Source: Chloroflexota bacterium (GTDB taxonomy: Bacteria; Chloroflexota; Dehalococcoidia; Lucifugimonadales; Lucifugimonadaceae). Taken from it: DNA of 64,000 nt. Below are positions 12,190 through 23,858 of this stretch, one piece after another. Location: NCBI GenBank assembly GCA_018650185.1, contig JABIGL010000042.1, positions 1 through 64,000 on the forward strand. Direction: 5' to 3'. Made by a program: the position numbers and the translations under genes. The stretch's first letter is position 1. Every line of letters begins with the position of its first letter. Below the pieces are notes generated by a model. It was not told the origin of the DNA. It made no database searches and saw only the letters and a program-made list of their open reading frames with translations.

Positions 12190-13902
12190 CTACTGGGCGA
12201 CGAAAGACGTCTCTAACTCGCCGTTCACGAAAACGTCCCACTCGGATCCCGGCTCAAACTCAGAGCCGAGGTTAATGTTCTCCTCGTAGGTCCGGTAGAT
12301 CTCGGCGCAGACCAATCCCGGGGGTGAAACCACGTTGGTCACTTCCACGGTCACAACGTTCTTGCCGTCAGCACCGATCGTCGTCACCGCCTGGCTGCCG
12401 TGTGGCTCGATACAACTGTTCTCAAGACCGGCGACAATCTGAAGCATGTGCTGAACCGGGAAGCTCTCCAGGAACGCCACTTCAACGGATTCGATGGGCG
12501 CGGGTTGCGTTGGAATCGGGAACGGTAGTGGGTCATCACCGGTGGTCGGCGTTGGCTCAGGGACCGGTTTTGCCACGTCGATAGCAGAGCCAGCAAAACT
12601 ATCGCCAAGGGCGCCGACCAGTGCTGAAAGCGCACCCGCGTCCTCGCCAACGTACAGGACGATCACATTTCCACGAAGGAAGAAGTGCGGTGGCGCAATC
12701 CAGCGGACAGACGATACGGAACCATCAGATGATTTGATGGTGCCGCCATCGACGGTCACTCCGGAAGCTGCTCCGTCAGCCAATGCTGTGGTTTCGAACT
12801 CGTGTACTTGGATGTCCTCGTCACCCAGCTTGATGATCCCGGCATCCAGCCCGAAAACGCCGCCGATAGTCTCATCAGTCGCTTGAGGCGTAACGCCCTG
12901 CTCCGCCAGAGACAGCATGAGGGCGTCGTAGCCGGAGAGTGTTGCCACCTCGTTGATGATCCCGTTTACGGTGAACTCCAGGACCTTGTCGTTCACGGCT
13001 AGCGTGTAGGTCACACCGGGCCTGAACTCGGCACCGACTTCTCCTGAACCGAGACCAACGATTTCCTCGTAAGTTCGGTAGTTGTCGGTGCAAGCAACAT
13101 CTCCGGAGGCAGGAACGGAGTTCGATACCGTCACGCCGTATATGTGTCCGGCTATGTGGGTCACCGAACCGCCTGGCTCGGCGCACCCATTGGGCAGTCC
13201 AGCCACGATGGTCGCGGTGATCTGAACAGGGTCGCTTTCCATGATGATGAGATCGACCGATTCGATCGGTGCATTGACCAATTTTTGGAGACCGGCGGGC
13301 TCGTCCACTCCGCCAATGGTGTCGCCATCGTCCGACCTTGTCAGGAATGACCGACCGAGAATCGTGGATAGGAGGTCAATCGTGTCGGCATCTTTGCCGA
13401 TGTACATCAAGATCAGGTTGCCGGAGCCAAAGAACGCCAGTCGATCAAAATCTTCCAGTGACGCCTCGATATCTCCTCCGGGCTCCTGAGCCTCTGCCTG
13501 GACGCTTAGTCGCGTTTCAACATCCTCAAACTCGAAAACGATTGCAGGGACTTCAGAGTCCTGATCTCCACCGACTTCGATGGCACGCCCAGAGACCTCA
13601 AATACCGACGGCGGGAACACCATGTCAGACGCCGCCATCTCCACGCCGGCAGCTTCCAGCGCGTTGACCAAATCCTCGTAGCTAACGACACCGTTCGGCT
13701 CTCCGACGTCGATGCCGGGGAAGGTCGCATCCACGGGCGTTGGCACCGCCGTTGCCGCGGGCGTAACGGTACTGGTCGGTTCGGGCGTCGAACCGCCGGA
13801 TGCCGCTGGACCCGTCTCGGGATCACTCCCGCAGGCGACCGCAAGTAGGGCAATAGCGGAGGCGATGGCGACCATCAGCCCGGCTCTCTTCTTCCAGATC
13901 AT
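12190..13902 (-). CDS. Exported lipoprotein with tandem A-B-A-B repeat architecture
   Basis: The 570-residue product has a signal peptide ending in lipobox LAVAC (Cys24), then a Thr/Pro linker. Two different domains alternate. Domain A (about residues 72-187 and 323-437) ends in FFGSGNLILMYIGKDADT and FFLRGNVIVLYVGEDAGA. Domain B (about 213-312 and 470-570) contains VAGLPNGC/VAGLENSC and NYRTYEEIVGLG/IYRTYEENINLG. Each B copy carries two cysteines (240/271 and 497/532). The start is well supported by AGGGAA just upstream of ATG. Similar B domains occur in the neighbouring lipoprotein and in the one at 23064. Function is unknown; an outer-surface binding or scaffold role is a guess. Confidence 0.85.
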   Translation of the reverse strand: MIWKKRAGLMVAIASAIALLAVACGSDPETGPAASGGSTPEPTSTVTPAATAVPTPVDATFPGIDVGEPNGVVSYEDLVNALEAAGVEMAASDMVFPPSVFEVSGRAIEVGGDQDSEVPAIVFEFEDVETRLSVQAEAQEPGGDIEASLEDFDRLAFFGSGNLILMYIGKDADTIDLLSTILGRSFLTRSDDGDTIGGVDEPAGLQKLVNAPIESVDLIIMESDPVQITATIVAGLPNGCAEPGGSVTHIAGHIYGVTVSNSVPASGDVACTDNYRTYEEIVGLGSGEVGAEFRPGVTYTLAVNDKVLEFTVNGIINEVATLSGYDALMLSLAEQGVTPQATDETIGGVFGLDAGIIKLGDEDIQVHEFETTALADGAASGVTVDGGTIKSSDGSVSSVRWIAPPHFFLRGNVIVLYVGEDAGALSALVGALGDSFAGSAIDVAKPVPEPTPTTGDDPLPFPIPTQPAPIESVEVAFLESFPVQHMLQIVAGLENSCIEPHGSQAVTTIGADGKNVVTVEVTNVVSPPGLVCAEIYRTYEENINLGSEFEPGSEWDVFVNGELETSFVAQ

Positions 13903-13981: not shown

Positions 13982-15067
13982 CTACTGGGCGGTGAATGTG
14001 GTCCAGGACCTGCCGTTAATTACGACGTCGTAGGTCTGCCCGGACTCGAATTCGCCACCGAGAGCGATGTTGGATTGGTGGATGCCGTAAACCTGGGCCG
14101 CCATCACATCAGTCCGTACGTAGTTCGTCATCCTGATAGCGACAACGTTGCCGTCACGTTTGACCGCGTAATCACCAAAAGTGGACGCTGCACTGGAGAG
14201 CCCGGATACGACCCACAAGGAGTACTGCGGCGGGAAGGACTCTGCGACGGTGACACCGGCAGACTCGATCGGCGCTTCCACGATCTCGATGTTTGAGGGC
14301 ACTTCGTCACCCGGGTACGGGATGGGCTCAATTGTGCTGCTACCCGAGTCGGACGAACCGGAGCCATCCGAAGACGTGGAGTCAGATTCGCACTCGTACA
14401 CCGGCATTGCGATCGGCTCGATGGTCAGGTCTTCTGGCATCGGCAAGATGGACGGCGGTGCGGACACCGGTTCCGGCGCGTCTTCGACTACCATTTCGGT
14501 CACGTCCGCCAGACCGGGTACCGGCATACCGAGGGAGATTCCATCCTGGACGTAGAGGTCCGGCGTCGGCTCGTTAACAAATGGGCCGCCGGGGTCCTCT
14601 TCCAGGGTTCCGATCTGCGGTGCGGCCTCACCGTCCTCGTCGACGTAATCCTCCAGGTCGTAGATCACTACGCCCGGCGCGGGGTCCACCGTTACCGGCT
14701 CACCCTCGATGAACAATGTCGGGTGTGAAACCGTGGCATCGCATTTGTAGTAGGGCGCGATCCCGATCGATTCTGACACCGTCTCACCACGAACACCTTC
14801 GACAACGGTTCCCGAAGTAGCCCCACCGTCGTTCCCGTCTCCCGGAACTCCTATCCCGGCAGGTGCACCAAGATTAAAGGCGGCGTCATTCTGCCCACCC
14901 TGTGCGGGCTGGGGCAGGGGATCACCTTCCGGGAGGTCCTCGTCAACGACCGATGATCCGCAGGCGACAACGGTCAACGCCATTGCGCCCACGCCCAGGG
15001 TCATGATCATTCTCTTGTGTCCCGTGAACCGGCCTAATTGACCGATCTGGTTAAGCTGGAACTTCAT
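13982..15067 (-). CDS. Exported lipoprotein with one C-terminal B domain lacking the cysteine pair
   Basis: This 361-residue protein has basic residues, a hydrophobic segment and lipobox LTVVAC (Cys36), preceded by a longer than usual N-terminal stretch. A long acidic, Pro/Ser-rich region follows. The C-terminal 95 residues match the B domain of its neighbour (SFPPQYSLWVVSGL near the start, GGEFESGQTYDVVINGRSW near the end), but both conserved cysteines are replaced by other residues. GGAG lies eight bases before ATG. It sits 79 bases upstream of the A-B-A-B lipoprotein gene on the same strand, so the two are probably one transcription unit. Function is unknown. Confidence 0.85.
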   Translation of the reverse strand: MKFQLNQIGQLGRFTGHKRMIMTLGVGAMALTVVACGSSVVDEDLPEGDPLPQPAQGGQNDAAFNLGAPAGIGVPGDGNDGGATSGTVVEGVRGETVSESIGIAPYYKCDATVSHPTLFIEGEPVTVDPAPGVVIYDLEDYVDEDGEAAPQIGTLEEDPGGPFVNEPTPDLYVQDGISLGMPVPGLADVTEMVVEDAPEPVSAPPSILPMPEDLTIEPIAMPVYECESDSTSSDGSGSSDSGSSTIEPIPYPGDEVPSNIEIVEAPIESAGVTVAESFPPQYSLWVVSGLSSAASTFGDYAVKRDGNVVAIRMTNYVRTDVMAAQVYGIHQSNIALGGEFESGQTYDVVINGRSWTTFTAQ

Positions 15068-21547: not shown

Positions 21548-23074
21548 TTGAGAATCGCCTGCCTTGGAATGATGCACGAGACGAACACGTTCCAGTCGGT
21601 ACCGACCACCTACGAAGAGTTCGAGAACTTTGAGCTTCTCCGGGGCGAGGAGATCACGGCACAGCACTCCACCGCGAACTCAACGATGGCGGGATTCTTT
21701 GAGGGAGCGGGTCGATTCGAGTTCGATCTGGTCCCACTTGTCCATGCGTTCACGGGCCCAACGGGCACCGTTACGAAGGACGCCTTCGACCGAATCGTCG
21801 GCGAAATGATTGATGGCCTCCGGAATTCAGGCCCGTTTGACGGAATCCTCCTGGGACAGCACGGCGCTGCGGTGTCCGAGGAGTACCCGGACATGGATGG
21901 CGAGATCGCTCGGCGCGTGCGCGATGCTGTCGGCCCGGACACGCCGGTGGTGATGTGCCTCGATCTGCACTCCAACATCACCCGCGTGATGATCGACAAC
22001 GTGGATGCAACGGTCGTTTACCGCACAAACCCCCACCTGGACCCGAAGCCACGAGCGGTGGAAGCCTCCGAAATCCTGGTTAAGACGATTCGCGGTGAGG
22101 CGAAGCCGGTTCAGTGGATTGAGCAGTTGCCGATGGTCATTAACATCTCCAAGCAGCCGACCGAACTGGAACCGATGAAGTCCGTGATGGACGACGTTCG
22201 GACGGTTATCGAGCGGCCCGGAATCCTTTCCGCAAGCTGCGGCCAGGGTTACCCGTATGCGGACGTGATCGAGATGGGCGTGTCGTTCGTCGTGGTTGCG
22301 GACGGCGATGTGGACGCGGCGCGTGATGCAGCGGAATGGCTCGCGTCACGCACGTGGGCGAACAGAGCCCTCTTTGGCAACGACACGCCGACTCCATCCG
22401 AAGCACTGACGGCAGCAATAAACGCGCCCGTCGGGGAGGGCCCGACGGTGGTCATGGATATGGGCGACAACGTGGGTGGCGGTGGATCGGCTGACTCTAC
22501 ACATCTCCTACTGGAGGCTCAGAAACAGGGTGCAAGTGAACTACTCATGAGCCTGTTCGACCCCGAGGCGGTCCAACGGTGCGTGACGGCGGGACCGGGC
22601 GTGGAGATAACGCTGAAGGTCGGCGGCAAGACCGACGACATGCACGGAGACCCGATCGAGGTCACAGGGCATGTCCGCGCGATTACGGACGGTAAATACG
22701 AGGAACCGACCCCTACCCACGGAGGAATAAGGTTTTTCGATTACGGCCCGACCGTGGCGCTCGACATCTCACCCACGAACGGACTTGGTGAGGGCAACAC
22801 GCTCTTACTCCACACCAAGCGCGGCGTCGGCAACATGTCGCGACAGCAGATGTACTCGGCCGGGATCTTCCCAGAGCGTTACCGGGTCGTTATCGCTAAG
22901 GGTGTCGTATCGCCACGGGCTGCATACGAGCCAATTGCACGAGAGATCATCCTGGCAGACACGCCCGGAGTTGCAAGCGCGGATCTGGATAGTTTCAACT
23001 TCACGCAGCGTCGAAAATCACTCTACCCGTTCGAGGAAGACGCCAAATACACGCCCGGAGAGATCACGCGGTAG
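21548..23074 (+). CDS. M81-family metallopeptidase (MlrC/microcystinase C-like)
   Basis: The 508-residue protein begins with the family hallmark MRIACLGMMHETNTF and has GILLGQHGAAVSEEYPDMDGE and CLDLHSNIT, the expected metal-site region, then the MlrC C-terminal domain. The family was named for MlrC of microcystin degradation, but most members are of unknown substrate. The start is TTG. Its last 11 bases overlap the convergent lipoprotein gene. A role in degrading linear peptides or amides is inferred from the family only. Confidence 0.88.
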   Translation: MRIACLGMMHETNTFQSVPTTYEEFENFELLRGEEITAQHSTANSTMAGFFEGAGRFEFDLVPLVHAFTGPTGTVTKDAFDRIVGEMIDGLRNSGPFDGILLGQHGAAVSEEYPDMDGEIARRVRDAVGPDTPVVMCLDLHSNITRVMIDNVDATVVYRTNPHLDPKPRAVEASEILVKTIRGEAKPVQWIEQLPMVINISKQPTELEPMKSVMDDVRTVIERPGILSASCGQGYPYADVIEMGVSFVVVADGDVDAARDAAEWLASRTWANRALFGNDTPTPSEALTAAINAPVGEGPTVVMDMGDNVGGGGSADSTHLLLEAQKQGASELLMSLFDPEAVQRCVTAGPGVEITLKVGGKTDDMHGDPIEVTGHVRAITDGKYEEPTPTHGGIRFFDYGPTVALDISPTNGLGEGNTLLLHTKRGVGNMSRQQMYSAGIFPERYRVVIAKGVVSPRAAYEPIAREIILADTPGVASADLDSFNFTQRRKSLYPFEEDAKYTPGEITR

Positions 23075-23858
23075 GCGGCTTGAGCCTCAAGTTCGTCTCA
23101 CCGCCGACAAAGTCGTACTGGTTCTTGAAGTTGAGCTGCAATATGTACTCGCCTGCCGGTTCGAAATCACCGGTCAGGAGAACCCGCACTTCGTAAGGCG
23201 TGAATTCGTCCGCACAAACCGTCGTGGGGTCGACCTCCTCGAGGTTCGTAACGCTGATCCGAAGGACGTTTCCAAACAACCGGCCACCGGAACGTGTTTG
23301 AGCTACTTCGCCCCGGGTCATACAGGACGACTCCAGGCCGGAGTCAGCGACAAATTCGTATTGCAACGGCGACTCACTGATGAGTTCGAGCCGGAAGTTG
23401 ACTAGCGGTGCAAGTACAGACTGGATGCCTTCATCCAGTTTCGCTTCGGTCGTTAGCTCAAGCTGGACCACTCCGTTGACACTCACGGTGTAGTCGGTCG
23501 CAGGAGAAAGCCCGGGCAGTTCTACAGTCCGCTCGTGGGAGCCGTATACGGCGGTGCAAGCGACACGCCCGTCTTGCGGGATGGTGTTGCGGACATCAAC
23601 AACAACGACGCTATCTACGACTTTTACGGTCGTGTTCTTGTACTGCGCACAGCCGTTCGGCAGTCCTGACACAACTCTTAGCTGGTATTCCGGGTTCTGA
23701 TCTCCGACCGTGATCAACTCGGCCTCGTCGATGGGGGCGAGGACTTCGAGTCGGGGAGCGAACTCGGCATCAGGAGGCGAGTCATCGCCACATGCCGCCG
23801 CTACGACGACCAACGCCGAAATCATGAGGACAAGCCCCGTCCGCAGTGCGCCATTCAT
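23064..23858 (-). CDS. Exported lipoprotein with two B domains
   Basis: The 264-residue product has a signal peptide ending in AAAC (Cys23), then two B domains, at about residues 43-137 and 150-252. The first has VVSGLPNGC (Cys70) and VACTAVYGSHE (Cys101); the second has DSGLESSC (Cys179) and TVCADEFTPYE (Cys215). The spacing between cysteines (31 and 36) matches the B domains of the lipoprotein at 12190 (31 and 35). Domain A is absent. It stands apart from the other two lipoprotein genes, which points to a dispersed family. Function unknown. Confidence 0.85.
   Translation of the reverse strand: MNGALRTGLVLMISALVVVAAACGDDSPPDAEFAPRLEVLAPIDEAELITVGDQNPEYQLRVVSGLPNGCAQYKNTTVKVVDSVVVVDVRNTIPQDGRVACTAVYGSHERTVELPGLSPATDYTVSVNGVVQLELTTEAKLDEGIQSVLAPLVNFRLELISESPLQYEFVADSGLESSCMTRGEVAQTRSGGRLFGNVLRISVTNLEEVDPTTVCADEFTPYEVRVLLTGDFEPAGEYILQLNFKNQYDFVGGETNLRLKPPTA

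Follow-up and report, generated by a model that had tools for sequence, protein, structure and literature searches.

The B domain, which occurs five times in the 64,000-nucleotide stretch of Chloroflexota DNA analysed here (the window), can be described with high confidence as an exported seven-strand Ig/Fn3-like sandwich with two near-invariant cysteines joined by a structural disulfide inside the domain, a bond made very probable by the fact that the rare copies lacking these cysteines have lost both at once.

B domains of the window and their predicted fold

As determined by tblastn with the B domains as queries, by alignment and by codon reading, the five copies all lie on the minus strand within three proteins identified as open reading frames, and the search of the whole genome at E ≤ 1 returned no B domain beyond them. 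The 570-residue lipoprotein encoded at 12190..13902 (minus strand) carries two copies, one at 12193..12501 with cysteines at positions 30 and 65 of the domain (C497 and C532 of the protein) and one at 12964..13272 with cysteines at 30 and 61 (C240 and C271). Two more are found in the 264-residue lipoprotein at 23064..23858 (minus strand), at 23103..23411 (Cys 30 and 66; C179 and C215) and at 23445..23738 (Cys 30 and 61; C70 and C101), the latter showing a weak fn3 match below the cut-off. The remaining copy, at 13985..14275, is the only B domain of the 361-residue lipoprotein at 13982..15067 (minus strand), and it has alanines in both aligned columns (A30 and A59 of the domain; A294 and A323 of the protein), each encoded by a GCG codon. 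A signal peptide and a lipobox could be read in the sequence of all three proteins, the lipobox of the 361-residue protein being VVACG with its cysteine at position 36. The sequence-only reading, which had described four B domains with two cysteines 31-36 residues apart and a fifth without either, was thus accurate both in positions and in spacings (35 residues for 497/532, 31 for 240/271, 36 for 179/215 and 31 for 70/101). An assembly error was ruled out as the cause of the Ala/Ala state, since two orthologues from other genomes of the genus (L122 and L123) are likewise Ala/Ala.

AlphaFold, run with 53 sequences, modelled the cysteine-containing copy at 12193..12501 with a pLDDT of 94.8 and a pTM of 0.83, and the Ala/Ala copy with a pLDDT of 95.4, a pTM of 0.82 and the same seven strands. 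These models suggest that the B domain is an Ig/Fn3-like seven-strand beta sandwich, a level beyond which no finer assignment is proposed. No Pfam model exceeded its cut-off for the host proteins or the single B domains of the window, no NCBIfam model did so for the three host proteins, and Foldseek gave no match under E 0.001. The best score of fn3 (PF00041) in the window was 18.9 bits, below the gathering cut-off of 25, and even at E ≤ 0.1 fn3 matched only 2 of 53 members; the B-domain relatives that were scanned gave weak Pfam matches only, and the PDB sequence search returned nothing beyond weak matches to S-layer proteins and receptors, the best of them at E 0.0025. At the structural level, the best match was the C-terminal part of NigD-like Bacteroides proteins (3qwn, entitled a NigD-like immunity protein, and 4pqx), with a VIA-align Z of 6.6 and an rmsd of 3.1 over 91 aligned residues, the next entries, of other kinds, reaching a Z of 5.8; at 11% identity and a Z under 8, this likeness may reflect a common arrangement only. 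The sandwich domains of GH2 enzymes also matched weakly. The seven-strand all-beta fold predicted for the B domain is also that of fn3, Big_5 (PF13205) and other Ig-like sandwiches, but the sequence similarity to fn3 is below the cut-off, the structural match to fn3 chains is weak (Z about 4.2), and the B domain differs from fn3 in its near-invariant cysteine pair, which spans the BC and DE loops. To our knowledge, ordinary fn3 domains have no such BC/DE pair. A search of titles and abstracts among open-licence papers found no description of the B domain. The B domain is an undescribed and uncatalogued family, even if the paired loss of its cysteines follows a well-known pattern.

The gene at 13982..15067 lies 79 bp upstream of that at 12190..13902 on the same strand, beyond which there are genes for prephenate dehydrogenase and phenylalanyl-tRNA synthetase, and it is flanked on its other side by an arylsulfotransferase-like gene. 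This neighbourhood is conserved in another genome of the genus (G322, locus L138), and it offers no clear clue to function. Besides its two B domains, the 570-residue lipoprotein contains two further regions of similar appearance (the implied A domains) that have no Pfam match.

Joint conservation and joint loss of the two cysteines

That one copy of five lacks both cysteines is in itself weak evidence for a bond and becomes strong only with homologues, which were collected from genomes of the class, the family and the phylum. Of 294 class genomes, 64 gave B-domain matches in a profile search; for the phylum the figure was 64 of 400, in a set that overlaps the class sample. When the Ala/Ala copy was the query, 84 of 393 class genomes gave matches, and the whole 361-residue lipoprotein matched in 32 of 76 family genomes. 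The sample also included 36 named loci, a biased subset in that the pattern used to find them contained a cysteine. The iterated HMM search yielded 402 domain rows (295 distinct), seven of which were left out because one or both cysteine columns were missing; six of these are fragments, cut at a contig end or by the frame, in which the only one of the two residues to be seen is a cysteine, and the seventh, part of L264, covers neither column.

Both columns could be aligned in 288 distinct domains, of which 284 were Cys/Cys, four were Ala/Ala and none was mixed, so that a homologue keeping only one of the two cysteines, which had been named as an observation that would speak against the bond, was found in 0 of 288 cases. 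This distribution supports the earlier proposal that joint loss in an exported protein points to a disulfide. The result did not depend on how the homologues were gathered: without the loci fetched by the cysteine-containing pattern there were 247 Cys/Cys, four Ala/Ala and no mixed domains (n = 251), clustering at 60% identity left 138 Cys/Cys and two Ala/Ala clusters (n = 140), and an HMM with the cysteine columns masked to X, applied to a smaller set of 202 distinct domains, gave 192 Cys/Cys, four Ala/Ala, six fragments and again no mixed domain. The spacing between the two cysteines ranges from 27 to 36 residues across B domains. In 21 of the 288 domains a third cysteine replaces a well-conserved glycine before strand F, and several of the proteins concerned (for example L032, L107 and L124) have a surplus of two cysteines, with which a second bond would be possible.

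The Ala/Ala state was found in four domains: the window copy, those of the orthologues L122 and L123 (from two genomes of the same genus, 58% and 48% identical to the window lipoprotein, respectively) and that of L059, a distant protein from another family. In a tree of the 288 rows, which is built on few columns and has many weak forks, the Ala/Ala state requires two changes, and the well-supported branches force two. Because L059 is placed among Cys/Cys relatives and two changes are forced, the cysteine pair was lost twice, each time to Ala/Ala; the state thus arose in two independent lineages, and no more than two loss events were seen. By branch length, the chance that two random second-site losses would fall on the same two branches is about 1.6e-5. 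The same sample contains B domains in metagenome-assembled genomes labelled Proteobacteria (L093, L096, L098, L099 and L114), which group with Chloroflexota L037 (support 89) and reflect either transfer between phyla or a binning error.

The pattern agrees in principle with the tandem loss of disulfide-bonded cysteines treated in PMC4498770, here in an undescribed Chloroflexota domain. In the PhyloCys model of that paper, bonded cysteines are lost in pairs, there is no stable single-cysteine state, and losses are commoner than gains.

Proximity of the two positions and alternative explanations

Covariation of the two cysteine columns had also been put forward as a check on the bond. The pair 30-65 does rank first of 3916 pairs by mean-field coupling, with 29-66 in second place, but the score of 30-65 is inflated by the pseudocount: when the Ala/Ala rows were removed, 29-66 ranked first (z 9.1) and 30-65 still ranked sixth. 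This coupling consequently counts for little, since a rank that persists without the varying rows is a pseudocount artefact on near-invariant columns. The flanking residues covary strongly: Gly29 is found together with Thr66, whereas Ala66 accompanies Ala or Ser29 (132/5 versus 30/32; Fisher 7e-15, a p value that ignores relatedness). Between strand B and strand E the couplings are strongest at i+j = 94-98, in an antiparallel register, and both 30-65 (sum 95) and 29-66 extend this register. Taken together, the flanking covariation and the strand B/E register would put the two cysteine positions opposite each other. The fn3 topology brings the BC and DE loops to one and the same pole, an arrangement compatible with a 30-65 bond.

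From these data we infer a bond that would form after export and tie the loop that leads from strand B into strand C to the loop preceding strand E, and whose role would be to stiffen the sandwich at that pole. Its loss in two lineages would have been stepwise: once one cysteine was gone, the other would have been left as a useless free thiol, and both would have been replaced by alanine. The fold would have been retained after both replacements, and the lipoprotein at 13982..15067 would belong to one such lineage.

In an exported domain, two cysteines that do not vary might instead form a ligand or redox site engaged in metal or thiol chemistry, and a loss of that activity in the Ala/Ala copies would also remove both. 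We consider such a site very unlikely, given that no His, Asp or Glu is the commonest residue in any column at 70% or more, that conservation is confined to columns of Ala, Pro, Ile, Leu, Gly, Tyr, Val and Asn, that the spacing of the cysteines is variable, that the cysteine parity is even, and that the flanking residues covary like packed neighbours. Slightly less probable still is a bond that links two B domains of the same protein, or two proteins. A first pass over 205 proteins found two, three and four B domains in 59, 13 and two of them, respectively, which would allow pairing between domains, but 131 of the 205 had a single B domain in frame (some of them cut by locus ends), and the register and the covariation make the two positions neighbours, an arrangement most simply reached within one chain.

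The least probable of the alternatives, and one to which we give hardly any weight, is that the paired absence came about by chance, or by relaxed drift as the domain decays. This could account for the one window copy alone, but it does not sit well with an Ala/Ala state that is kept in three orthologues 48-58% identical and that arose a second time, with an Ala/Ala domain whose remainder is well conserved and confidently modelled, or with the lack of any single loss among the 288 domains. The intradomain structural disulfide therefore stands as the preferred explanation.

Export, cysteine parity and oxidation

Further observations on the host proteins bear on export. With a rough pattern, a lipobox-like site was recognised in 136 of 199 proteins, many of whose frames are cut by locus ends, and 131 of these 136 have an even number of cysteines in the mature protein. 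Cysteines beyond the canonical pair are present in 42 proteins, in 37 of which the surplus is even (p 4e-7, ignoring relatedness); an odd surplus was found in L059 and four other proteins. An excess of even cysteine counts is described in PMC7678975 as a mark of exported proteins in disulfide-forming bacteria.

The lipoprotein at 13982..15067 has three cysteines, C36 of the lipobox and C109 and C226 in the linker, all of them invariant in the three orthologues, where the linker around C109 and C226 is otherwise poorly conserved. At a guess from these sequences, C109 and C226 may form a replacement bond. A bolder version, which we consider doubtful, is that in this genus the disulfide was moved and not simply lost, with C109 and C226 making a new long-range bond that would be formed without VKOR or DsbB, either by an exported oxidase that has escaped recognition or, in oxic water, without a catalyst. 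In the orthologue L123:1105-2100, about 40 residues of the linker are duplicated in tandem, and the cysteine is kept in one copy only.

With regard to the oxidation pathway, 60 of the 294 class genomes had a VKOR match over the cut-off, and 19 of the 294 a DsbB match. One or the other was present in 32 of 64 B-domain carriers and in 46 of 230 other genomes, figures that are uncorrected for genome size, so that the enrichment may reflect it; in the remaining 32 of the 64 carriers neither was over the cut-off. VKOR was over the cut-off in 20 of 76 family genomes and was not recognised in any of eight genomes of the window's genus, and DsbB was absent from the four genomes of the genus in which it was sought (G000, G257, G319 and G322). 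In the window's own genome (G000), where neither VKOR nor DsbB was found, a DsbA-like search gave a single match, below the cut-off. A link between the Ala/Ala state and the absence of VKOR was considered and rejected: all four Ala/Ala genomes are without VKOR, but so are 42 of the 64 class carriers, and two Ala/Ala lineages therefore prove no such link.

The paired loss of cysteines described here confirms an established rule and does not change it. The B domain raises the question of how exported cysteines are oxidised in a group where half of the carriers show neither VKOR nor DsbB, and what is gained is a defined, uncatalogued exported domain of the Chloroflexota with a well-supported predicted disulfide.
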